Shown here: one piece after another, positions 5,884 through 60,502 of the stretch | How the letters are laid out: each line of letters opens with the position of its first letter | Position numbering within the stretch: the stretch's first letter is position 1 | Assembly (NCBI RefSeq): GCF_023973825.1 | Contig: NC_090122.1 | Span: 800,130-864,129 of the forward strand | DNA length: 64,000 bases | DNA from: Plasmodium brasilianum | Lineage: Eukaryota > Apicomplexa > Aconoidasida > Haemosporida > Plasmodiidae | Reading direction: 5' to 3' | The notes under the pieces: generated by a model | Told to the model about the DNA's origin: nothing | Database searches by the model: none | The model's input: only the letters and a program-made list of their open reading frames with translations | Translations under genes and position numbers: made by a program

Positions 5884-6200
5884 CGTAATAATAATATTAG
5901 CAGTAATAAAATAGTAGTAATAAAATAGTAGTAATAAAAATAGCAGCAATAAAATAGCAGCAATAAAATAGCAGCAATAAAATAGAAGCAATAAAATAGC
6001 AGCAATAAAATAGAAGCAATAAAATAGCAGCAATAAAATAGTAGCAATAAAATAGAAGCAATAAAATAGAAGCAATAAAATAGCAGCAATAAAATAGAAG
6101 CAATAAAATAGCAGTAATAAAATAATAATAATAAAATAGTAATAATAAAATAGTAATAATAAAATAGTAATAATAAAATAGTAATAATAAAATAGTAGAA
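5884..6200. repeat. 14-bp tandem array (AATAAAATAGCAGC type)
   Basis: More than 20 copies. The left and middle part uses AGCAGC or AGAAGC units and the right part uses AGTAATAATAAAAT units, giving two sub-blocks. It produces artefactual Leu/Phe/Tyr ORFs on the minus strand. Confidence 0.85.
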
Positions 6201-7498: not shown

Positions 7499-10367
7499 AT
7501 GAACTGCTTCGGCATCATCCTGTTGTTGTTCCTTTTGCTAATAACTGCAGCCATTAGGAGAAAAGAAAAAAATGGTTCATCGCTATTCAACAAAAAAAGA
7601 AATTGTTTTATGTTATTTTCATTATTTTTCTTTCGGAAAAATAGTAGTGATAATGAAAATATGATTTTTAAAAAAATAAAGTTCATTCATAGTGCGAACA
7701 AAATTCTTTATATAAATGTAAAGCATAGAATTAACTACAAAGTTAAGGGGACAAGCAGCAAATACGCCGTTACGCATAGTAGCCGTGGAAATAGTGTTAG
7801 CGGTAGTAGTAGCAGCAGTAGTAGTAGCAAAAGCAGAAGCAGTAGCAAAAGCAGAAGCAGTAGTAGTAGCAGAAGCAGTAATAGCAGTAGCAGAAGCAGT
7901 AGTAGTAGCAGAAGCAGTAGTAGTAGCAGAAGCAGTAGTAGTAGCAGAAGCAGTAGTAGCAGTAGCAGTAGCAGAAGCAGTAGTAGTAGCAGAATCAGTA
8001 GCAGAATCAGTAGCAGAATCAGTAGCAGAATCAGTAGTAGTAGACGCAGTAGTGGTAGACGCAGCAGTTGTAGTAGCGCCGGTAATTCATTCCGTGAGCA
8101 TTGTTACCATAACACGTACTGCACCTGTGTGAATACAAAAATGATCGAAAGCGAGTACTTGAGTTACCTGAAAAATTATATTGTGGACGAAGAAGAGCTG
8201 ATACGCGTGCAATCGAATGGCAAAGGTGTGCATGGAAATGAAGAGAACAATTATAAGGAGGTAGATGAAATTGAAAAGATGATTAGCAACACGATAAGAA
8301 AAAATGAAAAGGAGCTGTTTGATTTTTTGAATAGTGTCAATGAAAAATATAATTTGAAAAGTACTCTGAGGGTTGTTGGTGGATGGGTAAGAGACAAATA
8401 TTTAAAAATTAGTAATGACGATATTGATATTACAGTGGATAATATGAAAGGGTCGGATTTCTGTAATTATATAAAAGAATATATAAAAGAAAAAGAAAAC
8501 AAAAATTTTAATTTTGGAATAATAAAAATAAATTCAGATCAATCAAAACATTTAGAAACTTCAAGTTTTAATCTTTTTAATTTTCAAGTAGATATTGTAA
8601 ACTTAAGGAGTGAAAAATATTCAGAGGATAGTAGGATCCCAGAGATTGCTATTGGCACACCAGAAGAAGATGCACTAAGGAGGGACTTTACAATTAATTC
8701 TTTATTTTATAATTTAGATAACAAAAGAGTAGAAGATTTTACTAAAAAAGGGATATTTCATTTAAAAAATAAAATTATTTGTACCCCGTTAAATGCGTTA
8801 ACGACATTTCTTGATGACCCATTAAGAGTTATTAGATGTATAAGATTCTGTGGTTATTTTAATTTGTATATAGAAAAAAATATTTTTAATGTTTTAAAAA
8901 ATGAAGACATCAAAAAATCGTTTAATAAAAAAATTTCAAAAAGTAGACTTTCTTTGGAAATATTGAAAATATTTTCTTCAAAATGTAAAAATATTATTCT
9001 CTCTTTAGCCTTATTGAATTATAGTTCTTATTCATCTCAAATTTTTAAGTTACCACCAGAGTATTTTATTAAAAATGAGGAGGCGTTTGAAAAGGTTAAG
9101 AATTGGGACAAGATAAATCGAGGGAGCATCATCCATTCGGCTGGTAGTGGTCGTGATGGCGGAAATGGTATTAACATCATCAGCAATGGTGGTAGTGGTA
9201 ATAGTAGCTTTAACAGTTGCCCAACGGGTATGAATAAAAAAATTAACGTTGGATTAGCTGACGCTGGAACGTATAGGAATGTTTTACAGAATGACCATCT
9301 CATTGGAGAAAAGACGATGTATGATGATATGAGTAATTCGAAGAGGAGCAATAATAATGAAGAACAACTTCTCCTTTTTGGATTGCAAAATAAGGTAAAT
9401 GGTATTTCCAAAAAAATGCGTATTAACAAGTTAGGCAATTTAACAAACAAAACAGCGGATAGACTTGATAATGAAGGAGTGGAAAAAAAAAGGTGCGATG
9501 AAGCCAGGTGGCAATTTCAAGGCTTAAATTATATAAAATTTTTTAAAGACATTGAAAAGAATAATTTGTTAAAAGAGATATTCTTTGAGCTAAATTATAA
9601 AGAAAATTTAAATTATATACACTTATGCTTATTCTTTTTGCCTTTAAAAAATCATTTTTCGTACATAAAAAAAAAAACGAAAACAGAGTATGTAATTGAG
9701 TATATAATTCGTGAATCATTAAAATTCCCTTTAAAATATTCGAAATTTTGTGTACATATTTTTGAAGGATTTATGCATATATATAATTTATATAAAAATA
9801 TGAACGTTCATAATTTTTTGAAAAATTGTAATCATGATAAAAAAAATAATCTACATAGCACAGGTGATATTGTTTTGTTTTTAAAAAATGTTGGGGAAAA
9901 ATGGGATTTGTTACTATTCATTTTTTTTATATTTCATAAATATAATGAAATAAATAAAAATTATATAACTTGTTTATCAGATGATATTTTTCTCTCAGAT
10001 TTTGTTAAAATATTATATCAATATATTTTAACGAACGGCTTACAAAATGCCTATAATATGAAACCCTTTTTAAAATGGCCAGACATTAAGCACAACTTTC
10101 CGCAAATTTCCAACTCTCGAATTGGCGAGGTCTACGAGCAGATAGTAAGCACAGAAATGCGCAGTGAGCGTGTGCAGGGGCGTATTTGCTCTCGGACGTA
10201 CATACATTCGAACATACATTTATGCATGTGTAATGTCCATCATATGAGCTCTCCTATTTTTTATGCTTACCTTTCTTCTCTTTCAGATTCGATTTACGTG
10301 TATCCACGGGGAAAATGAAAAAGACTGCATAGAATTTTTGAAACAATATTTTAAGAAAACATCCTAA
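7499..10367 (+). CDS. tRNA CCA-adding enzyme (tRNA nucleotidyltransferase), two exons
   Basis: Adds or repairs the 3'-CCA end of tRNAs; class II nucleotidyltransferase of the poly(A)-polymerase head family. Exon 7499-10144 and exon 10287-10367 are joined by donor GTAAGC and acceptor TTTCAG. The second exon replaces a spurious tail with 26 in-frame residues ending FKKTS, for a total of 908 residues. The head domain shows VVGGWVRD (about 290), the metal-binding DDIDI (about 307), RRDFTINSL (about 395) and DPLRVIRCIRF (about 440), the normal order. The N-terminus is hydrophobic (FGIILLLFLLLITAA) and followed by basic sequence, consistent with a signal or bipartite organelle targeting sequence. 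A Ser/Arg repeat (7800-8080) and an insert around 9130-9330 make it much longer than bacterial enzymes. Targeting to the apicoplast, dual use by several compartments, or neither is undecided. Confidence 0.93.
7790..8080 (+). repeat. AGC/AGT/AGA codon repeat encoding a Ser-Arg tract
   Basis: Imperfect AGCAGAAGCAGTAGT units (15 bp) within the CCA-enzyme exon encode serine runs punctuated by Arg, ending in RISS copies. The period is a multiple of three, so the reading frame is kept. Confidence 0.9.
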
Positions 10368-10500: not shown

Positions 10501-13500
10501 TTAGAATATTTCCGTTTTGGCTTTAATTATTTTTTCCTCTTCTTCTTTCAACTTTTCCACGTCCTGCAAACGTATCAATTGTTTAAGTTGAAAAAATAAA
10601 TTATTTACCTTATAAATATTTTCGTAGTAAAATAAAATAAAAAAAATAAAGGGGATAATGAATGTTCTGTTTACCTTATCATTAACACTTAATGATATAA
10701 CTTTATTACAAATTTTCACAAAATCTTCACGCGTATTTACTTTCCCGTTCGACTGTATTTCGAAACATAGCTTATTAATCTCCTCTTGTGACAAATATAT
10801 ATAATTCCCATTTTCGTCTAATACGCCGTTAATCATATCTTGTTCTTCGAGCTCTTCCAGCTTTTTTTGTATATCCTGCATGTATATGGTGTGTACCACA
10901 TTTACGTTACATGTTCATGTTTATGTGATGTATGCCACATTTACGTGACGTGTTCATATTTTTATGACTCGTGCATAAAATATTTTGCAAAAAGTGGGGT
11001 AATATCTTTTAGTTATTCTTTTTGATGCCTCTTATTTTATTTTTTTTTTTTTTTCCTTTTGTACCTCCGTTGTTGTTTGGAACTTAACTGATAACTCTGT
11101 TATATTTACATACTTTTTTAATTTTATAAAATTCAAAAAACAAGACATAAGAACGTCTGACGAAAGCCAGTCGTCCTCTTGTTTCTTCGATATCATGTGG
11201 GACTGCAAAAAAAAAAAAAAAAAAAGAACATTTGTTGGGGTTACACGTGAGTGAAAATGTGAGTATATATATATATATGTATACTCGTGCATCTATACAT
11301 GCACCCACAAGTTTCTATACACGTAGACGAGTGCATGAACACTTTTGAAGAATCTTTTAAAGACAGATACGCACTTTCCACTTCTTGAGCTTCCTTATTT
11401 CTCTGTTACTCATTTCAGTCGAATACTAAAAAGGAAAAATAAAGTTTATGCTTGTGATATGTGAGCATTTGATATGTGCATATAATTCGGGCATAAAACA
11501 AGGACGAATTTGCAAATGCGCACACGTCTCAGAATATTACACTCAATACGTCCGCGTTAGTTCTGTGCCTTGTATATTCAAACATTTGTTCCTTCATCAT
11601 TATATCTTCATTTTCTCCCTCTTCTGATTCATTTGTTTGATGCCCTGCCCTTCCTTCGTTACTCCTCATTTCTAAATTTCTCATTAATGAATCTTTTATG
11701 TTATCACGCCGGTATCTGGCTTTGTCAAATGGATTTTCACTATCCCCATTGTTTACTTGTACATTTACATAATTTTCAAATTTCTCTTTTAAACTATTTT
11801 TTTTTATATTTTTTTCAAATAGATCTTTAAGCTCCTCTTTTACATTTTGTTGCAGTTTCTTTACTTCGCACTCATTCATACTCGTCTCAAATTTGTATCG
11901 CCCCTTTAGGTTTTTAAACTCATAATTTTTAAATTGTTCCCTTGCATCTTCGTTTGATATTCCAACAGTCATTTGGTTTGACGTTTCGTTTACTGCTTCG
12001 TTTACCACTCTACTTGCCTCTTCACCTATCACTTCACTTGCCTCTTCACCTACCACTCCACTTGTCTCTTCACCTACCACTCCACTTGTCTCTTCACCTA
12101 CCACTCCACTTGTCTCTTCACCTACCACTCCACTTGCCTCTTCACCTACCACTCCACTTGTCTCTTCACCTACCACTCCACTTGTCTCTTCACCTACCAC
12201 TCCACTTGCCTCTTCACCTACCACTCCACTTGTCTCTTCACCTACCACTCCACTTGTCTCGTCACCTACCACTCCATTTGCCTCTTCCCTAACTTCCTTG
12301 TGTGCACTACTCTTTTTTGTACTATCCTCACTATCATGTATGGTATTTCTTAATACATCTGACTTTTCATCTATACTTATAAAGAATTCCCTTAATTTTT
12401 TAATGTGTTTAAGGTTTTTATTACTACCCGAGCTCTTTTTCTTTGAATCATTCCTTGAGTTATCCTTTATGCTGTCGTTAGAGGTATTTGTACTAATTAC
12501 ATATTTTGAATTATTAATATAAGGTATATCATTAGCAGTTACATAGTCATGTGTTCTTAAAGTAAATTCATCCATTTCTTTTTTTTTATCTTCTTTTGCT
12601 TTATCTATTTTATTATATTTATCCTCTTCATTCTGTCCCTCATTATTTTCACTTATAATATAAGTACTACTGCTAGTATTTTCAGTGTATGTCTCAACCT
12701 CTTCACCTTCTCTTTTGTTTACATCAACGATGAGACTGCATCTACGCCCTTGACTATTATTGTCTTCCGCTTCTTCGTAGTCTGGTTTGCTTTTGCTTGA
12801 TTTGTCTACATCGTTCATATCAATATCGTTTTCATATTTAATATACTTGCTAGGAACTTCATACGTGTTGCCATTTTTACTCCTCCTCTTATCTGCATCA
12901 ATAGTATGATCATGTTTATCCAGTTGATTATTCGTTCCTTCCCTTTTCATGTTGTCTTTTGTGCTTTCATTTGGTTCGACTACATCATTTACATCATTTA
13001 CACCATTTATACTATTTATAACATCGATTTCTTTATTTTCAATTATTTTTCTATATGTGTCGTATTTATTGTTATTTTTACTCTTCCTTTCATAAGTATC
13101 AGTAATATGATCACTACTCTTCTGCTTACTGTATGTATCTTTCTCTTTCTCATAGTCTCTTTCGCCTCTTCTCAATGTATCTATTTCATATACGTCCTTA
13201 GTTTTGTTACTTTCAATTTCTTTTCTATTAACGTTGTTTATTTTGTTACCTTTACTCTTCCTCTTATCTGCATCTATAATATGATTGCTACTACTTTGCT
13301 TACTGTATGTATCTACCTCTTTGACGTAGTCTCTCTTGATATGTGTTATGTCTTCTGTTCTTTTATTATTTCTTTTTTGTTCATTTATTTCATAGCACTT
13401 TTTGTTACTACCTGTCCTTATAGCTCTTATTCCATCTTCCGTATGAACATCAACCATCTCAATACTTATCTCATCAGCATAATTTTGTGCACTCTCTTTT

Positions 13501-16500
13501 CTGTTTCTTACTTGGTTTACTCGTTCATTTAGTACTACTATTTTATGACTTTCGTGCATTCTGTTTGGTTCAAGCGCTTGTCTCGTATCAAGAACTTTGC
13601 CTTTTTTTTCCATTTCGTTTGTATCATAATTTGAGTTATTACTTCTCGTTTCTCCCTTATACATACTATCATGAGCGTCATTCTTACTCTTCCTTTTGTT
13701 TGAATCACACACATAGATATGTTTTTCCCCTTTTGAAACTGTATTTTCTTTATTTGCGCTTCCACGTCTTGCACTTTCATCTCTTAGACTTATACGCAGG
13801 GTACTTTCACCCCTTACACTTTCGACTCTTACACTTTCGACTCTTACACTTTCGTCTCTTACACTTTCGTCTCTTACACTTTCACCTCTTACACTTTCAC
13901 CTCTTATACTTTCACCTCTAGTACTTTCACGTCCAGCACTTTCAGATCGAGAACCTTCATCTCCCACGCTTTCACTTCTTGTACCTTCTCCTCTTTGACT
14001 TTCACATGTAAAACCTTTATCTCTTGTAATTTTTCTTCTGGTACTTTCATCTCTTGCATTTACACGTATAGCGCTTTCCTCTCTTTCATTTTCACGTCGA
14101 GCACCTTCACTTCTTGCACTCTCGGGTCTAGAACCTTCACCTCCTATACTTTCAGGTCTAGTACTTTCATCTCTTGATCTTTCATCGCTTGTACTTTCAC
14201 GTCTAACGCTTTCATCTATTGCACTCACACGTTGAGTATCTTCATCTATTGCACTCACCCTTCGACTACCTTCATCTATTGCACTCACACGTTTATTATT
14301 TGCATCTATTGCACTCACACGTTTATTATTTTCATCTATTGCACTCACACGTTTATTATTTTCATCTATTGCACTCACACGTTTATTATTTTCATTTATT
14401 GCACTCACCCTTCGACTACCTTCATCTATTGCACTTACACGCCGAGTATCTTCATCTATTGCACTCACACGTCTAGTATCTTCATCTATTGCACTCACAC
14501 GTCGAGTATCTTCATCTATTGTACTTATACGTCTATTATTTTCATCTATTGCATTTACACGTCTATTATTTTCATCTATTGCACTTACACGTCTAGTATC
14601 TTTATCTATTGCACTCACCCTTCGACTACCTTCATCTATTGCACTTACACGTCTAGTATCTTCATCTATTGCACTCACACGTCGACTACCTTGATTTATT
14701 GCACTCACACGTCGACTACCTTGATTTATTGCACTTACACTTCGAGTATCTTCATCTATTGCACTCACCCGTCTATTATTTTCATCTATTACACTCACAC
14801 GTCTAGTATCTTCATCTGTTGCATTTACACGTCGACTACCTTCATCTATTGTACTTATACGTCTATTATTTTCATCTATTGCATTTACACGTCTATTATT
14901 TTCATCTATTGCACTCACACGTTTATTATTTTCATCTATTGCACTTACACGTCGACTACCTTCATCTATTGCACTCACACGTCGACTACCTTCATCTATT
15001 GCATTTACACGTCGAGTATCTTCATCTATTGCACTTACACGTCTAGTATCTTTATCTACTACACTCACCCTTCGACTACCTTCATCTATTGCACTTACAC
15101 GTCGACTACCTTCATTTATTGCACTTACACGTCGACTACCTTCATCTATTGCACTTACACGTCGACTACCTTCATCTATTGCACTCACCCTTCGACTACC
15201 TTCATCTATTGCACTTACACGCCGAGTATCTTCATCTATTGCACTTACACGTCTAGTATCTTTATCTATTGCACTCACCCTTCGACTACCTTCATCTATT
15301 GCACTTACACGCCGAGTATCTTCATCTATTGCACTCACACGTCGAATACCTTCATTTATTGCACTCACACGTCGACTACCTTCATTTATTGCACTTACAC
15401 TCCGAGTATCTTCATCTATTGCACTCACCCTTCGACTACCTTCATCTATTGCACTCACACGTCTAGTATCTTCATCTATTGCACTCACACGTCGAGTACC
15501 TTCATCTATTGTACTTATACGTCTATTATTTTCATTTATTGCACTCACCCTTCGACTACCTTCATCTATTGCACTTACACGCCGAGTATTTTCATCTATT
15601 GCACTCACCCGTCTATTATTTTCATCTATTACACTCACACGTCTAGTATCTTCATCTGTTGCATTTACACGTCGACTACCTTCATCTATTGTACTTATAC
15701 GTCTATTATTTTCATCTATTGCATTTACACGTCTATTATTTTCATCTATTGCACTCACACGTTGAGTATCTTCATCTATTGCACTCACCCGTCTATTATT
15801 TTCATCTATTACACTCACACGTCTAGTATCTTCATCTATTGCACTCACACGTCGAGTACCTTCATCTATTGTACTTATACGTCTATTATTTTCATCTATT
15901 GCACTCACACGTTTATTATTTTCATCTATTGCACTCACACGTTTATTATTTTCATCTATTGCACTCACACGTTTATTATTTTCATCTATTGCACTCACAC
16001 GTTTATTATTTTCATCTATTGCACTCACACGTTTATTATTTTCATTTATTGCACTCACCCTTCGACTACCTTCATCTATTGCACTTACACGCCGAGTATC
16101 TTCATCTATTGCACTTACACGTCTAGTATCTTCATCTATTGCATTTACACGTCTATTATTTTCATCTATTGCACTCACACGTTGAGTATCTTCATCTATT
16201 GCACTCACCCGTCTATTATTTTCATCTATTACACTCACCCGTCTATTATTTTCATCTATTACACTCACACGTCTAGTATCTTCATCTGTTGCATTTACAC
16301 GTCGACTACCTTCATCTATTGCACTCACACGTCTAGTATCTTCATCTATTGCACTCACACGTTTATTATTTTCATCTATTGCACTCACACGTTTATTATT
16401 TTCATTTATTGCACTCACCCTTCGACTACCTTCATCTATTGCACTCACACGTCGACTACCTTCATCTATTGCATTTACACGTCGAGTATCTTCATCTATT

Positions 16501-18410
16501 GTACTTTCACGTCGAGTATCTTCATCTATTGCACTTACACGTCTAGTATCTTTATCTATTGCACTCACACGTCGACTACCTTCATCTATTGCACTCACAC
16601 GTCGACTACCTTCATCTATTGCACTTACACGTCGACTACCTTCATTTATTGCACTTACACGTCGACTACCTTCATCTATTGCACTCACACGTCGACTACC
16701 TTCATCTATTGCATTTACACGTCGAGTATCTTCATCTACTGTACTTTCACGTCGAGTATCTTCATCTATTGCACTTACACGTCTAGTATCTTTATCTATT
16801 GCACTTACACGTCGAGCACCTTCACCTCCTTCACTTTTACGTCTTGAACTATCACTTCTTGTACTTTCATCTCTTGAACTTTCGTCCCTTGCATTTTTAC
16901 GGCTTGCACTTTCATATCTTGCACTTTCACTTTCTTCACTTTCATCTTTTGCACTTACACGTCTAGCAATTTCATCTCCTGCACTTTCACATAGAGCAAC
17001 TTCATCTCTCGCATTTACGCTTCGGGTCCTTTCATCTCTTGTACTGTCAAGTCGAAAACCTTCGCCTGTTTCACTTACACATCCAGTACTTTGAGATCGA
17101 GAATCTTCCCTTCCAATACTTTCATCTCTTGTACTTTTACGTCTAGCATTTTCGTTTGTTGCACCTTCATCTCTTGCATTTTCACCTCTTACACTTGCAC
17201 ATTGAGTACTTTCATATCTAGCACTTTTACCTGCTGCAACTTCACCCCCTTCGAAAGAGGCACTGACAACTGCTTCTTCCTTACTGTTTCTCATCTCATT
17301 TACATGAACAGATTTGTCAATAGAATTTCTCTTTTGGCTAGTCGTATCCTGAATATGATCACTTGTTTTTTCCTTTCTTTTAAGTGAAAACGAGTTTATA
17401 TTTGTTTTTTCTTCATCATAAAATTTATCAGAATAATAATTTTTAGAGTTTTCATTTTCCCTATCATCTGAGATATTCTTCTCTTTTGATAAAGAATAAG
17501 AATCCTTTTCTTCGTATTTTTTTATATCATTTATTATTTCATCTATATAATCCTTGTGGGCATTATTCAAATTATTAACTGCAATGTTTTTCTCTAATTT
17601 GTCTATTTGCCCTTCATTTTTCTGAACGCTCTTTCTGTAACCATAAAACAGGTTTTGCACTAGGCTCACAATAGAGAAATTAGTGCTTCTACCGTTACCA
17701 CTGCTACCATTTTTGCCGCTGCTTTTACTGCTGCTATCGTTATTGCCGCTTCTACTGCTTCTATCGTTATTGCCGCTTCTACTGCTGCTATCATTATTGC
17801 CGCTTCTACTGCTGCTATCATTATTGCCGCTTCTACTGCTGCTACCGTTATTGCCGCTTATACTGATGCTATCGTTATTGCCGCTTCTACTGCTGATATA
17901 GTTTTTTCCGCTTTTATTGCTACTATCTTTGTTAACATTATGGTCATTCTCCATTGATGCATTTCCATTTTCTGCACAATTTTCTTCTGAACGGTTCACT
18001 GGTGTTACGGTGCCTTCCATTACATCCTTTAGTCGATCATTCATCCAGGAGCAATTAAAATAGCTTGTATTTGTTTTTACTTCCTTATCTTCGAGGCAAG
18101 CAGTATTCATATTATATTTATTATTGCTTGCATTTTCTTCTCGTTCAGTAAAATCTGCAGAGTATATATTGTTTTCTTCATTCCTTTCGCTGTGACAACT
18201 AAGGGTTAAACTATCGTACATATTAACGCTAACCTTAAGAACTATTTCTCTACTATCATCTGATTCGTTTATTATTGTTTTCTTTATTTTGCTATGCTTC
18301 TTCATCTCTGAAATTGTTTTTGTATGTGTTACCATCTCCATCTTCATTTTCTCCATCTTCATTTTCTCCATCTTCATTTTCTCCATCTTCATTTTCTCCA
18401 TCTTCATTTT

Positions 18411-18441
<31 letters not shown>

Positions 18442-19523
18442 TTTTCAAATATTTCCCTCGTTTCGTTATTAAAGTTCGAAACATCACCTAGACTGGTAAG
18501 CTCTTTGCATTTAGGACTGTCCGTTGGACTGCTTGATATCATCTTATCATTAGAGAAGTAATTCGTAGAATTTTTTTTTTTTACCATTTCATTCTTAAGT
18601 ACATATGCTGAACTTTTAATTCCGCTTGTTAACAAATCTTCCTCAGTAGTACATATTTCATTACTAATATTTGCTGACTTTCTTAAAACTTTATCATTAG
18701 GCTTGTTTTCTCCTTTATCGCATTTACAACTGGTAGACTTTGCACTAAGCACATTTATATCGTCCTCAATTTTACTACTCTCTTCTTTGTTTAAAATTTT
18801 ATGTAATTCTCTGTCTATTATTAGTAATTCCCCTTTAATATATTCCAACCCTTCATTTAATTTTAAGTAAGTATATATTTTTTTTTTTTCTTTTTTGCTG
18901 ACTTGGTCAGAATTATTTATTTCACTCCTACTGTAAATCTCATCTTCCGAATCATTAAAACTTTCTAAATATTCCTTGCTATTTAAAGATATTTGTTCAA
19001 TGTTAAAATGCTCTTCTCTTTCATTCTCTTTTCCACTGTTTGGAAAGGAGTTTTCCTTTCCTACTCTTCTTACATTCCTGTGATAATAGAAAGGGGGTAG
19101 AGAAGAAAAGAAAAAAAAAAAAAAAAAAATCAGCCATAAAATATAGTACATAAAAAAGTTATGTAAATTTTAGCTATTCGGAAAGATACATAACTTCTGC
19201 AATGTTAAGAAGCGTGTTATGGGGGTATACATGTGTGCAAACACACAAGAGTGAGTATATATTTGTGTATATTTATATATTTACATATATTTGTGTATAT
19301 TTAAATGTTTATATATACATTTGTATATATTTACATGTTTATGCATTTACGTCCCCTTTGTGCGAACGCAGTAACTTGGACTGCCAGAGCAGGTACTTCA
19401 AGCTTACCTAATGAAGTAGGTGGAAAGGAAGACCAACAAGACGTTTATAAGTACAAACGTAATACTTGCATTAAGAGAAAGCTCTATTTTAAAAAAATCA
19501 AAAAAAGTTGATGACTTATTCAT
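10501..19523 (-). CDS. DDRGK-domain (UFBP1/DDRGK1-like) ER membrane protein, giant repeat-expanded form, six exons
   Basis: DDRGK1/UFBP1 is an ER-anchored partner of the UFM1 ligase UFL1. I assemble exons 19523-19408, 19077-11550, 11425-11375, 11202-11065, 10875-10675 and 10563-10501, all with GT-AG ends and matching phase, giving 2,698 residues; human DDRGK1 is about 314. The first exon encodes one hydrophobic helix (FVLINVLLVFLSTYFI), then RNVRR, like the family's N-terminal anchor. The C-terminal exons carry SSDVLMSCFLNFIKL, then TTEDIQKKLEELEEQ, then INGVLDENGNYIYLS, aligning with the winged-helix DDRGK domain; the DDRGK motif itself reads DENGN. Between anchor and domain lie Ser/Asn repeats, about 86 copies of a 10-residue repeat (residues about 794-1661) and GVVGEETS repeats (about 2304-2402). 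Exon 1 is my inference from splice sites. The boundary GAC|GTATTG is the weakest, but all other donors tried break the frame. Confidence 0.82.
11985..12285 (-). repeat. 24-bp coding repeat (GVVGEETS)
   Basis: About 12 copies of an eight-residue acidic unit, GVVGEETS or GVVGEEAS, in the DDRGK protein just upstream of its C-terminal region. Confidence 0.92.
14210..16815 (-). repeat. 30-bp coding minisatellite, about 86 copies (RRVSAIDEGS type)
   Basis: Perfectly phased 30-bp units encode RRVSAIDExx decapeptides whose last two residues are mostly GS, DT or NN. First residues vary (RR, KR, QR, RS) and VSAI alternates with VNAI, ISTI or ESTI. About 60 units contain RRxS and 12 contain KRVS. Higher-order blocks are repeated, for example near 14821-14900 and 15661-15740. 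Degenerate relatives (ESARDE-like) flank it at 13780-14200 and 16815-17220. Confidence 0.95.
17700..17895 (-). repeat. 27-bp coding repeat (SGNNDSSSR)
   Basis: Nine-residue units rich in Ser, Gly and Asn in the N-terminal third of the DDRGK protein. A short KMKMEKM repeat (18340-18410) lies further upstream. Confidence 0.85.
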
Positions 19524-46454: not shown

Positions 46455-46705
46455 CACTCTGTTGTATTCAATTTATTCATTTGTATTCAATTTATTCATT
46501 TGTATTCAATTTATTCATTTGTATTCAATTTATTCATTTGTATTCAATTTATTCAGTTATACTCAATTTATTCAGTTATACTCAATTTATTCAGTTATAC
46601 TCAATTTATTCAGTTATACTCAATTTATTCAGTTATACTCAATTTATTCAGTTATACTCAATTTATTCAGTTATACTCAATTTATTCAGTTATACTCAAT
46701 TTATT
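46455..46705. repeat. 19-bp tandem array, two sub-families
   Basis: About 13 copies of ATTCAATTTATTCATTTGT or ACTCAATTTATTCAGTTAT. The left five use TTTGT and the rest TTAT, with a clean switch near 46550. Confidence 0.92.
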
Positions 46706-47107
46706 CATTTGTTTTTAATTTTATCTAATTTTAATTACCTTCAGTTTCATTTAATTTTATTTAATTGTATTCAATTGCATTATATTGCATTTGAATTTAA
46801 TTTAATTCGGTTTGTTTTTATCGTGTTTTTTTTTTTTTTTTTTATCTTGTTTTTATTCTGTTTTTACTTTATTTTTATTTTTTTTTTCTCTTATGCTTCT
46901 TGTTTGTTGTCTAGCACCCATTTCCTAAAGTAGGTTGTATTTATTTATGCTGTAAGTTACTCCCCTAATTAAACTAATTTTTTTCACTTCATTTTTTTTT
47001 TTTTTTTATTTTAAAAATAAAAGTATTTTCTTTTTATTTCGTATTACCATGTATTATCCTAATTTTTTTTTTTTTTTTTTTTTTTTTCTGTTTTGTACTG
47101 TATCGTT

Positions 47108-57750: not shown

Positions 57751-60502
57751 TTTAATACGTAAAACTAATGGCACTTAATTTAACACGTAAAACTAATTGC
57801 ACTTAATTTAACACGCAAAACACATAATTCTTTTTTAACGCGAAAAACATAAACACTTATTTTAAAATGTAAAACACATAAAACTTTTTTTAAAAAGTAA
57901 TACACATATGGCTTTAGTGCGCAATAAAACACATAATACTACATAAGGCTTATTTGAACATATAAAACTTAACGCTCTTTTTAACACATAAAGCTTAACA
58001 CTCTTTTTAACACATAAAACTTAACGCTCTTTTTAACATATAAAACTTAACGCTCTTTTTAACACATAAAACTTAACGCTCTTTTTAACACATAAAACTT
58101 AACGCTCTTTTTAACACATAAAACTTAACGCTCTTTTTAACACATAAAATGCTTATCGCTTAAAACGTTAACACTTTTTTTATTTTTTAACGAAGTGAGA
58201 TGAGGAATCATTTACAAGTAATAACACGTTTTAGTAAGTGTAACACCATCCTTATTTATTATAAAAATTAAATTATATTAGATAAATAAATGGTTCTTTT
58301 ACTTTTATTTAATTAGTTCACTACTTTTCACCGAAAAATAATAAAAAATAATTTGCAATTATTGACTTGCGAAAAATTGTAATAATAAAATGAAATGTTA
58401 ATGATTTTTAAAGTGTACAATGTAAATATATATATAGTTATGTTAGATATTCATAAAGATAATATTTATTACGTATAGCTAATTAAATTGAATAGTTTTA
58501 CTTTTTCCGCTTCTTTCCTTCTTTCCGTACATACTCAAAATAAAAGCAAAAGAGCCCTGTTAAAAACCTAGTTTTTAATATATTATTGTGTTAATACATA
58601 TAATTAAATAAATATATCGCGTGTATTTATCAATATTACTGCATTATTACAAACTCGTAAGAATTAATTTAAACACCCCTGCATTGAAATATATATTAAA
58701 TAACAACACAGTTTAGTGGTAGTTAGTATGCGATGGTGTACAAATATATATATATATATATGTATATAATATATTATGTACATATTTTTATCTTTTTGCG
58801 TATAAATTATAATAAATAAATAAACAACAGTTGTAAAAGGTAGAATGCGGGTGAGAAATAATTAATTATACATATAAAGTATATGTACAAACTATACCAT
58901 ATACTTTATATGTACATATATATATATACAATTCACCGTGGTTCTTTTTAAAAAAAATGAGTAAAATTTTTCTTTTTTATGATTATTGCTTTTAAAGAGG
59001 CATTAGTAGGAGAGGTCAGGTACATAAATAAATACGCATTACTTTGTGGGGAAAAATGATTTTGTAAATTAAAAAAAAAAGAAAAATCCATTTATCTTAT
59101 TTAGGACTTTTTTCCAAAGGGAAAATGTATTTATTCATTTATATATATATTAGGCATATTATATACATATACACACGTGCACATGTATATATGCGTAATA
59201 TATACATATGAATATATAACAAGGGTATATATAACGAAAATCAAAAATTGCCTATACACACGGTACTGATACTAGAGTAACGTTTTTATATAGAGCAACT
59301 TAAAAAAAAATTCTAAACGTGTTAATTTAATGATCCTCTAAAATGAATTTTGTGTATAAAATAGTAACACGACCTTGAATTAGCAATATAAAAGGGACTT
59401 ATTCTGATATAATGAAACTGTGTAATAATTATATTAACAAAAGAAAAAATGGGAAAAAAATAAAATAAAGAACTGTGGTGTGATATTCAAACCTTTTTTT
59501 TATATAAAAATACGTAATTTTATACAAATGGAAAAAAATAAAAATAAAAATTATGTACCATCTCTTTTTCATAGGTTTTTAAAAAATTTCTTTCCATAGT
59601 ATAAACAAAAATATAAATCGAAAAAGTAATTTTGTACATATTTCGAATGTTCAAAAAGGATATACACATATTCAATTATATATATGTATGTATATACATA
59701 TATATATTATGTAAAAAACAAATAAGAAAATATCATGTGTGAACTTTCACAAAAAGATGATCGGGGTGTAAAAAAATAAATGTAAAACAAAAAAAAAATA
59801 ATACACAATTTATGAGGCCTTCCTAATATTTGGGAGGAGTATGTTTCCTCAAAAAAGAAAATTTTAAAAATACATAAATTTATTTTTTTATTTTTTTTCA
59901 TTTTTTAAATTATATATTTTTGGTAATTTTTTTGGATGATGCACACCTTTTTTTCACTTCACCGTCAAATGAACAAAAAAACAACTCCGATTTTCAATAT
60001 TTCACAAAGTACCATTTTTTAATTTGCTTTTTCCATCAGTCATCGCTCATCTGTAATCAGTCAACGTTCCTCTATCGTTATTCCTCTCATATCATTCATC
60101 ATTCTTTTTTCCCTTTCCCATTCTTTTTTCTTCTTTCTTTTTTTTTATTTTTTTTTTTCCCATTTTATAAAAACAGTTTAAAAGAAATTTTTTTTTTTTT
60201 TTTTTTTTTTGTTCTTTAAAAATGATGATCATTTAAAAGCTGACTGATTATAACTAACCAAATAGAAATAATTCGTGGTCTTTATTTTATGCTCCCTTAA
60301 TGAAATATATTGTATATTATATAAAACAGTATAATGCAAATATAATGCAACAAAATATAGTACAATATAATGAAATACAATACAACGCTATATAATACAG
60401 TTTAGTTTATAAAGTACAACGCTATATAACTGCAAAAGTAGGATTATTTTTTTCCTTTTTAAAAAAAAAGAAGAGGCATAACAGTTAGAAAGAGCTACAA
60501 AT
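56520..60502. other. 4-kb divergent promoter region of EXP1 and GCN20
   Basis: Strong AT bias with several (AT)n tracts, A/T runs (57421-57445, 57714-57746) and a 26-bp array. EXP1 is highly expressed in blood stages, so part of this is probably its promoter, but I recognise no defined element. ORF-like frames at 59707-60219 are T/F-rich shadows. Confidence 0.5.
57960..58150. repeat. 26-bp array (CATAAAACTTAACGCTCTTTTTAACA)
   Basis: About seven near-identical copies in the EXP1-GCN20 spacer, with degenerate relatives from 57770 to 57960 (CACGTAAAACTAATGGCACTTAATTTAA) that share the AAAAC ... TTAA framework. The core of the unit is AACGCTC. Confidence 0.92.

Follow-up and report, generated by a model that had tools for sequence, protein, structure and literature searches.

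A long decapeptide repeat array inside a DDRGK-domain protein of Plasmodium brasilianum

The window analysed here, a stretch of 64,000 nucleotides from Plasmodium brasilianum contig NC_090122.1, carries on its reverse strand a gene for a DDRGK-domain protein which incorporates a tandem array of 87 decapeptide units (Table 1). The gene model, based on splice consensus, frame and homology, comprises six exons with GT..AG introns and an open frame of 2,698 residues followed by a stop, in agreement with the length of about 2,700 residues estimated in a first-pass annotation of the window. The predicted protein is composed of a hydrophobic N-terminus, about 2,400 polar residues, approximately half of them in tandem arrays, and a strongly conserved C-terminal DDRGK (PCI-like) domain. 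The array is real and the DDRGK identity proposed in that annotation is right, while the function suggested there, a polymer of kinase sites, is not supported.

The decapeptide array and the protein that carries it

Tandem Repeats Finder (TRF) places the array at 14211-16813, with a period of 30, 86.8 copies, 86% matches, 0% indels and a score of 3092. Reading in codon register gives 87 units, 60 of them with RRxS, 12 with KRxS (always KRVS) and 15 without the motif. The first-pass counts of about 86, about 60 and 12 therefore hold, as does the array itself at 14210..16815, except that its ends lie a few bases away. Among the 87 in-frame units, 41 are distinct as DNA and 28 as peptides, and their first four residues read RRVS (53 units), KRVS (12), RRVN (10), RRIS (5), QRVS (3), RRES (2) or RSVS (2). 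The pattern [RK]RxS is the consensus of basophilic kinases. A motif of this kind (PKA/PKG-type) in constant register, as claimed initially, is present in 72 of the units. Mean identity between units remains flat with increasing lag (0.82-0.86), and no higher-order periodicity is seen.

AlphaFold2, run on 20 units as a single sequence without alignment, returned a mean predicted local distance difference test (pLDDT) score of 40.5, with none of the 200 residues reaching 70. This low confidence is compatible with disorder of the array, without proving it; the short strand drawn in most of the 20 units was left uninterpreted. The array also matched PF22963 (Ig_NUP210_3rd) at E 9.3e-5, but its 23.1 bits fall short of the cut-off of 27, and the match was rejected as one of composition. 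On the opposite strand, the antisense of the array (14178-16847, +) forms an open frame of 889 codons, and in another plus-strand frame stretches of 346 and 302 codons, overlapping or adjoining it, are likewise open. We attribute these open frames to the absence of stops from the 30-bp unit.

Assignment of the protein to its family follows from the spliced C-terminus, which matches Pfam DDRGK (PF09756) with 139.4 bits (cut-off 27.8) over profile positions 13-188 of 188. Five matches in the PDB were obtained by phmmer. Four of them are named DDRGK domain-containing protein 1, one as a UFL1 fusion (8c0d_B, E 4.5e-8; 8b9x_A, 1.1e-7; 8qfc_D, 1.2e-6; 8ohd_C, 1.8e-6), while 1wi9_A carries the name 'Protein C20orf116 homolog'. 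Profile and best PDB matches thus confirm the DDRGK/UFBP1-like identification of the first-pass annotation. The literal DDRGK pentapeptide is not present: the protein reads VLDENGNYIYL where a PDB chain has VIDDRGKFIYI and P. falciparum VLDEKGNYIYL. The pentapeptide gave the family its name, but it is the profile that decides membership in PF09756.

DDRGK1 has an N-terminal membrane anchor and a cytosolic C-terminus. The segment encoded by exon 1 agrees with such an anchor, as judged by hydropathy: the best 19-residue Kyte-Doolittle mean is 2.24 at residues 15-33, compared with at most 0.91 beyond residue 60, and no other part of the protein is strongly hydrophobic. Likeness to DDRGK1/UFBP1 is found at both ends, in the hydrophobic segment and in the C-terminal domain. 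The Plasmodium protein differs in having DENGN in place of DDRGK, in its four repeat arrays, and in its 2,698 residues against the 303 and 314 of the two longer PDB chains of DDRGK1 alone. Great lengthening by repeats had been recognized correctly in the first-pass annotation. Its normal length of about 300 residues fits these two chains, but a P. falciparum model of 437 residues also bears repeats upstream of the DDRGK domain.

All four coding repeat arrays of the protein lie in exon 2. Three of them (KMEKM, GNNDSSSRS and GVVGEETS types), as well as the two pentapeptide flanks of the decapeptide array, had gone unmentioned in the first-pass annotation. TRF arrays with a score of at least 100 cover 3,882 of the 9,023 bases of the gene. 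Repeats are abundant throughout the window, beyond the DDRGK gene, and arrays above the same score occupy 8,911 of its 64,000 bases in 35 merged arrays. Minisatellites at 2228-2633, 5905-6198, 46468-46707 and 57953-58149 (units of 38, 14, 19 and 26 bp) have no open frame of at least 250 residues listed over them. The neighbouring gene for a protein with a poly(A)-polymerase head (7499-10318, +) has a Ser-rich repeat of its own at 7799-8077, ahead of its domain.

Table 1. Exons and repeat arrays of the DDRGK gene, in window coordinates
Feature	Position	Strand	Remarks and basis
Exon 1, start codon and N-terminal hydrophobic segment	19408..19523	-	GT donor, frame, Kyte-Doolittle hydropathy
Exon 2, 7,528 bases, with all four coding repeat arrays	11550..19077	-	open throughout
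Exon 3	11375..11425	-	aligns with P. falciparum P0003; the P0004 model skips it
Exon 4, where the PCI/winged-helix part of the DDRGK domain begins	11065..11202	-	profile and P. falciparum alignment
Exon 5, DDRGK domain core	10675..10875	-	profile, PDB chain, P. falciparum alignment
Exon 6, C-terminus and stop	10501..10563	-	P. falciparum alignment
KMEKM-type array, 15-bp unit, 6.7 copies	18335..18435	-	TRF
GNNDSSSRS-type array, 27-bp unit, 7.7 copies	17721..17927	-	TRF
N-side degenerate pentapeptide (15-bp) array	16815..17213	-	residues 661-793; holds RRVSAKDESE at residue 744
Decapeptide array, consensus RRVSAIDExx	14205..16814	-	residues 794-1663; 87 units of 30 bp; TRF and codon-register reading
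C-side degenerate pentapeptide array, xRxES type	13749..14204	-	residues 1664-1815
GVVGEETS-type array, 24-bp unit, 12.1 copies	12003..12291	-	TRF

Kinship with the P. falciparum DDRGK protein

When the spliced C-terminus was used as query, 1,601 candidates yielded three P. falciparum proteins, which share 59% identity with it, two of the models over 94% of its length and one over 85%. Two homologue searches with pieces of exon 2 gave nothing at E <= 0.01 among 142 and 421 candidates, and no NCBIfam family was assigned to P0001 and P0003. Since none of the three models begins with a hydrophobic segment, they are taken as partial. The one that extends furthest upstream, P0003, aligns with exons 3-6. 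Its last 139 residues are identical to the P. brasilianum protein at 124 positions, compared with 42 of 115 aligned residues in the stretch immediately before. Ahead of the domain it carries an Asn/Met-rich array of the NNMKNIENMNN type. No RRx[ST] occurs in any of the three apparently partial models, and the broader [RK][RK]x[ST] is found once in each of two. In this comparison the domain is conserved and the repeats that can be seen are not. Comparison with other Plasmodium species at this locus, proposed as a check in the first-pass annotation and made here with P. falciparum, disclosed different repeats without the motif, as far as these models extend.

The order of neighbouring genes points in the same direction. 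An MRS2-like transporter, an alpha/beta hydrolase and the protein with the poly(A)-polymerase head are followed by the DDRGK gene. In P. falciparum, PF3D7_1120300 is the magnesium channel MIT1, PF3D7_1120400 the serine hydrolase abH112 and PF3D7_1120600 the DDRGK protein, and this numbering presumably follows gene order. Orthology to PF3D7_1120600 would be the best explanation of the shared order with MIT1 and abH112 together with the kinship in sequence. PF3D7_1120600 is also the last gene of a chromosome 11 interval in the table of genome-wide selection signals of PMC3952670; as the interval spans 256 kb, we draw no conclusion from it on the single gene.

Origin of the array and of its kinase-like motif

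Both flanks of the decapeptide array are degenerate pentapeptide repeats that share its frame and phase. Residue identity at lags of 5, 10 and 15 is 0.27, 0.30 and 0.29 in the N-side flank and 0.44, 0.50 and 0.43 in the C-side flank, against 0.03-0.08 and 0.04-0.08, respectively, at the other lags up to 15. Among the six best 30-base founder matches listed for each flank, all 12 keep the frame and lie at a distance from the array units that is a multiple of five residues, in 6 of the 12 a multiple of ten. The best of them, RRVSAKDESE (residue 744) and RRKSTRDESI (residue 684), match an array unit in 26 of 30 bases. Codon-shuffled flanks gave a mean of 20.7 of 30, and their maximum of 26 was reached by 1 of 200 shuffles. 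The decapeptide array therefore looks like one nested in an older degenerate pentapeptide array, with RRVSAKDESE as its apparent founder.

Inside the array, exact duplications of 173 nt and 163 nt are found 28 and 55 units apart, and perfectly matching blocks, 76 to 173 nt long, are repeated at a spacing of 1 to 67 units, which indicates block copying. A Ser-to-Asn variant is present in 10 units and 4 DNA haplotypes and is always preceded by GTA, as expected of one change that was subsequently amplified. A change that abolishes the motif has in this way been multiplied and not purged. The simplest history would be that one pair of pentapeptides was amplified via slippage and block copying. With a founder-like unit that already bears the motif in the flank, the 72 motifs are best read as one event copied. 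RRxS is carried by 12.9% of the cyclised flank decapeptides, compared with 4.4% in random draws of the same composition, and Rxx[ST] by 74.2%, so the presence of RRxS in the founder is unremarkable.

Alternatively, the array could be intronic, mis-assembled or inflated, which we regard as very improbable. Exact copies of 173 nt are a typical pitfall for assemblers, the gene model was derived from genomic sequence and not from cDNA or reads, and because other frames are open too (889 residues in antisense), openness alone says little. Nevertheless, no indels occur over 2.6 kb, all 87 units are open in the frame that joins both flanks, 41 different DNA units are present, the flanks share frame and phase, and the array is contained in a 7.5-kb exon that is open throughout.

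Of the 20 matches listed in a search of the parasite's own genome with an 80-residue array query, 16 fall in the DDRGK gene, one of these largely within the N-side flank, and the remaining 4, outside the gene, are weak (28-33% identity). The strongest of the latter (C7, L012) is a different open frame with IRRCGSVDES-like repeats and was not counted as a second gene with this repeat. It lies at C7:1247000-1256500 (L012 2803-8760), is 1,985 residues long and holds repeats of the types DEDVADEEV, IRRCGSVDES and KERYKEQY. The genome also contains at least 170 matches to PF12420, with 150 of 1,527 candidates scored; this family is expanded in P. malariae and P. brasilianum, and its abundance points to a parasite of that group.

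Taken together, we consider it probable that the gene is the DDRGK orthologue of PF3D7_1120600, that its array is a lineage-specific expansion of an older pentapeptide unit, that the repeats form a weakly constrained tether, and that the domain acts independently of UFM1. One unit of the older array would have expanded in the lineage by slippage and unequal exchange, and the RRxS motifs would be present because the founder unit carried one; some of these sites may be phosphorylated without consequence. The N-terminus would anchor the protein in the endoplasmic reticulum (ER) or the outer nuclear membrane, the repeats would serve as a long cytosolic tether with little sequence constraint, and the C-terminal domain would perform its conserved work at the tether's end, as an adaptor without UFM1. 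Seen in this way, the array would add one more lineage-specific repeat expansion to those known from Plasmodium proteins. As in other low-complexity and tandem-repeat regions of Plasmodium, a repeat-rich stretch adjoins a conserved domain, the difference being the 87 units here, most of them with a basophilic-kinase-like motif. The evolutionary paths of such regions are termed species specific in the abstract of PMC5762703. No article on this array or on a phosphorylated RRxS array in Plasmodium was found in the open-licence literature, and other literature may differ.

Several points weigh against this interpretation. The ratio of nonsynonymous to synonymous change (pN/pS) among distinct units is 0.81, and 0.55 over codons 1-8, so that some constraint on the peptide is possible; the ratio is confounded because synonymous variation is confined to codons 1-3 and 9. 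Outside the array, RRxS occurs 6 times against a shuffled mean of 1.0 (standard deviation, SD, 1.0) and [RK][RK]x[ST] 19 times against 9.9 (SD 3.0). This excess is confounded because the flanks, with 5 of the RRx[ST], share the ancestry of the array; pentapeptide ancestry explains it at least in part, and selection would give the same. Furthermore, the comparison covers partial P. falciparum models, in which loss of an RRxS repeat there and gain here look alike, and the tether and the membrane topology enter by inference. PMC5762703 argues that natural selection shapes Plasmodium low-complexity regions.

Selection for the motif itself is the core of a further explanation, in which PKA/PKG/CDPK-type kinases phosphorylate many of the 72 [RK]RxS sites on the side of the ER or nuclear envelope that faces the cytosol and turn a near-neutral polyampholyte into a strongly acidic, extended brush similar to that of neurofilament-H. 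The single register of the motif in 72 of 87 units speaks for it, together with the pN/pS below 1 and the RRxS excess elsewhere in the protein. If the topology is that of DDRGK1, with an N-terminal anchor and the C-terminus in the cytosol, the array would be within reach of cytosolic kinases. Counting -2 for each phosphate, full occupancy of the 72 sites would shift the computed net charge of the array (870 residues) from -13 to -157. A precedent is the neurofilament-H tail, for which PMC9826399 gives 42 KSP repeats. The likeness is one of analogy, in tens of phosphorylatable motifs set in tandem; proline-directed kinases and established phosphorylation distinguish that tail from an array known here from its sequence, and no homology is claimed.

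On the other hand, a founder-like unit is already present in the flank, the Ser-to-Asn change was amplified to 10 units, and the three P. falciparum models are devoid of RRx[ST]. In codons 1, 2 and 4, which make up the motif, amino-acid changes are of 4 kinds, compared with 10 kinds over the five codons 3 and 5-8. Numbers this small do not clearly set the motif apart as the better conserved part of the unit. A neurofilament-like brush is physically reasonable yet unsupported, and we regard this explanation as unlikely; the phosphosite polymer put forward in the first-pass annotation as the function of the array was not borne out.

The DDRGK domain in its cellular setting

Loss or absence of UFM1 in Plasmodium is reported in the pertinent passages of PMC10183829 and PMC7600729. 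We used profiles PF03671, PF08694, PF09743, PF23659, PF25041, PF07910 and PF05600, which cover UFM1, UFC1, UFL1 (three models), UFSP (Peptidase_C78) and C53 (CDK5RAP3), with UBA5 outside the set. An exon-by-exon search of the parasite's own genome gave no match at E <= 0.001, a further difference from the DDRGK1/UFBP1 setting, although six of the seven profiles were silent in 14 controls too, so that absence of the system is not shown. DDRGK and the small ubiquitin-like ATG8 were detected in the same genome by profile search.

In P. berghei gametocytes, PBANKA_0927700, a DDRGK protein, co-purified with SUN1, and a DDRGK protein co-purified with ALLAN, according to the portion of PMC12092005 on these experiments, in which PBANKA_0927700 is termed a UFM1 E3 ligase. 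We infer from the domain name that PBANKA_0927700 is the orthologue. In addition, an extract of the preprint PMC12919170 cites another study for the need of the DDRGK protein in gametocyte formation. The P. brasilianum protein is most likely an adaptor anchored in the ER or nuclear envelope, whose C-terminal domain would work on a long, partly repetitive tether.

The same extract of PMC12919170 bears on the possibility that the array is kept because repeats draw an antibody response of low value when the protein is released at lysis. In a Ugandan cohort, transmission-reducing activity was best predicted, among the array proteins, by antibodies to PF3D7_1120600 (area under the curve, AUC, 0.92). 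However, surface exposure would be surprising for an ER or nuclear-envelope protein, the repeats visible in P. falciparum are of another kind, the extract does not name the epitope, and an association of antibodies is no demonstration of selection. We judge this explanation quite improbable. In a combined scenario that we hold to be a long shot, a DDRGK1 free of UFMylation was kept in malaria parasites, with its C-terminus strongly constrained, as an ER or nuclear-envelope adaptor that associates with SUN1 and ALLAN in P. berghei, and in the P. malariae lineage its tether turned into a brush switched by kinases at about 72 basophilic sites, with a charge shift of up to about 144 in the course of the cell cycle or gametogenesis.

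Long tandem repeats in Plasmodium invite functional stories drawn from the motif of their unit. Here the flanks seem to keep the ancestor, so that the motif is visible before the expansion and was then copied along with the unit. This is a warning that copies of one founder should not be counted as independent evidence. Of greatest interest is the setting: the DDRGK domain has stayed conserved in parasites for which absence of UFM1 has been reported. With 124 of the last 139 residues identical to P. falciparum, a UFM1-independent role of DDRGK would be directly testable in a laboratory malaria model.

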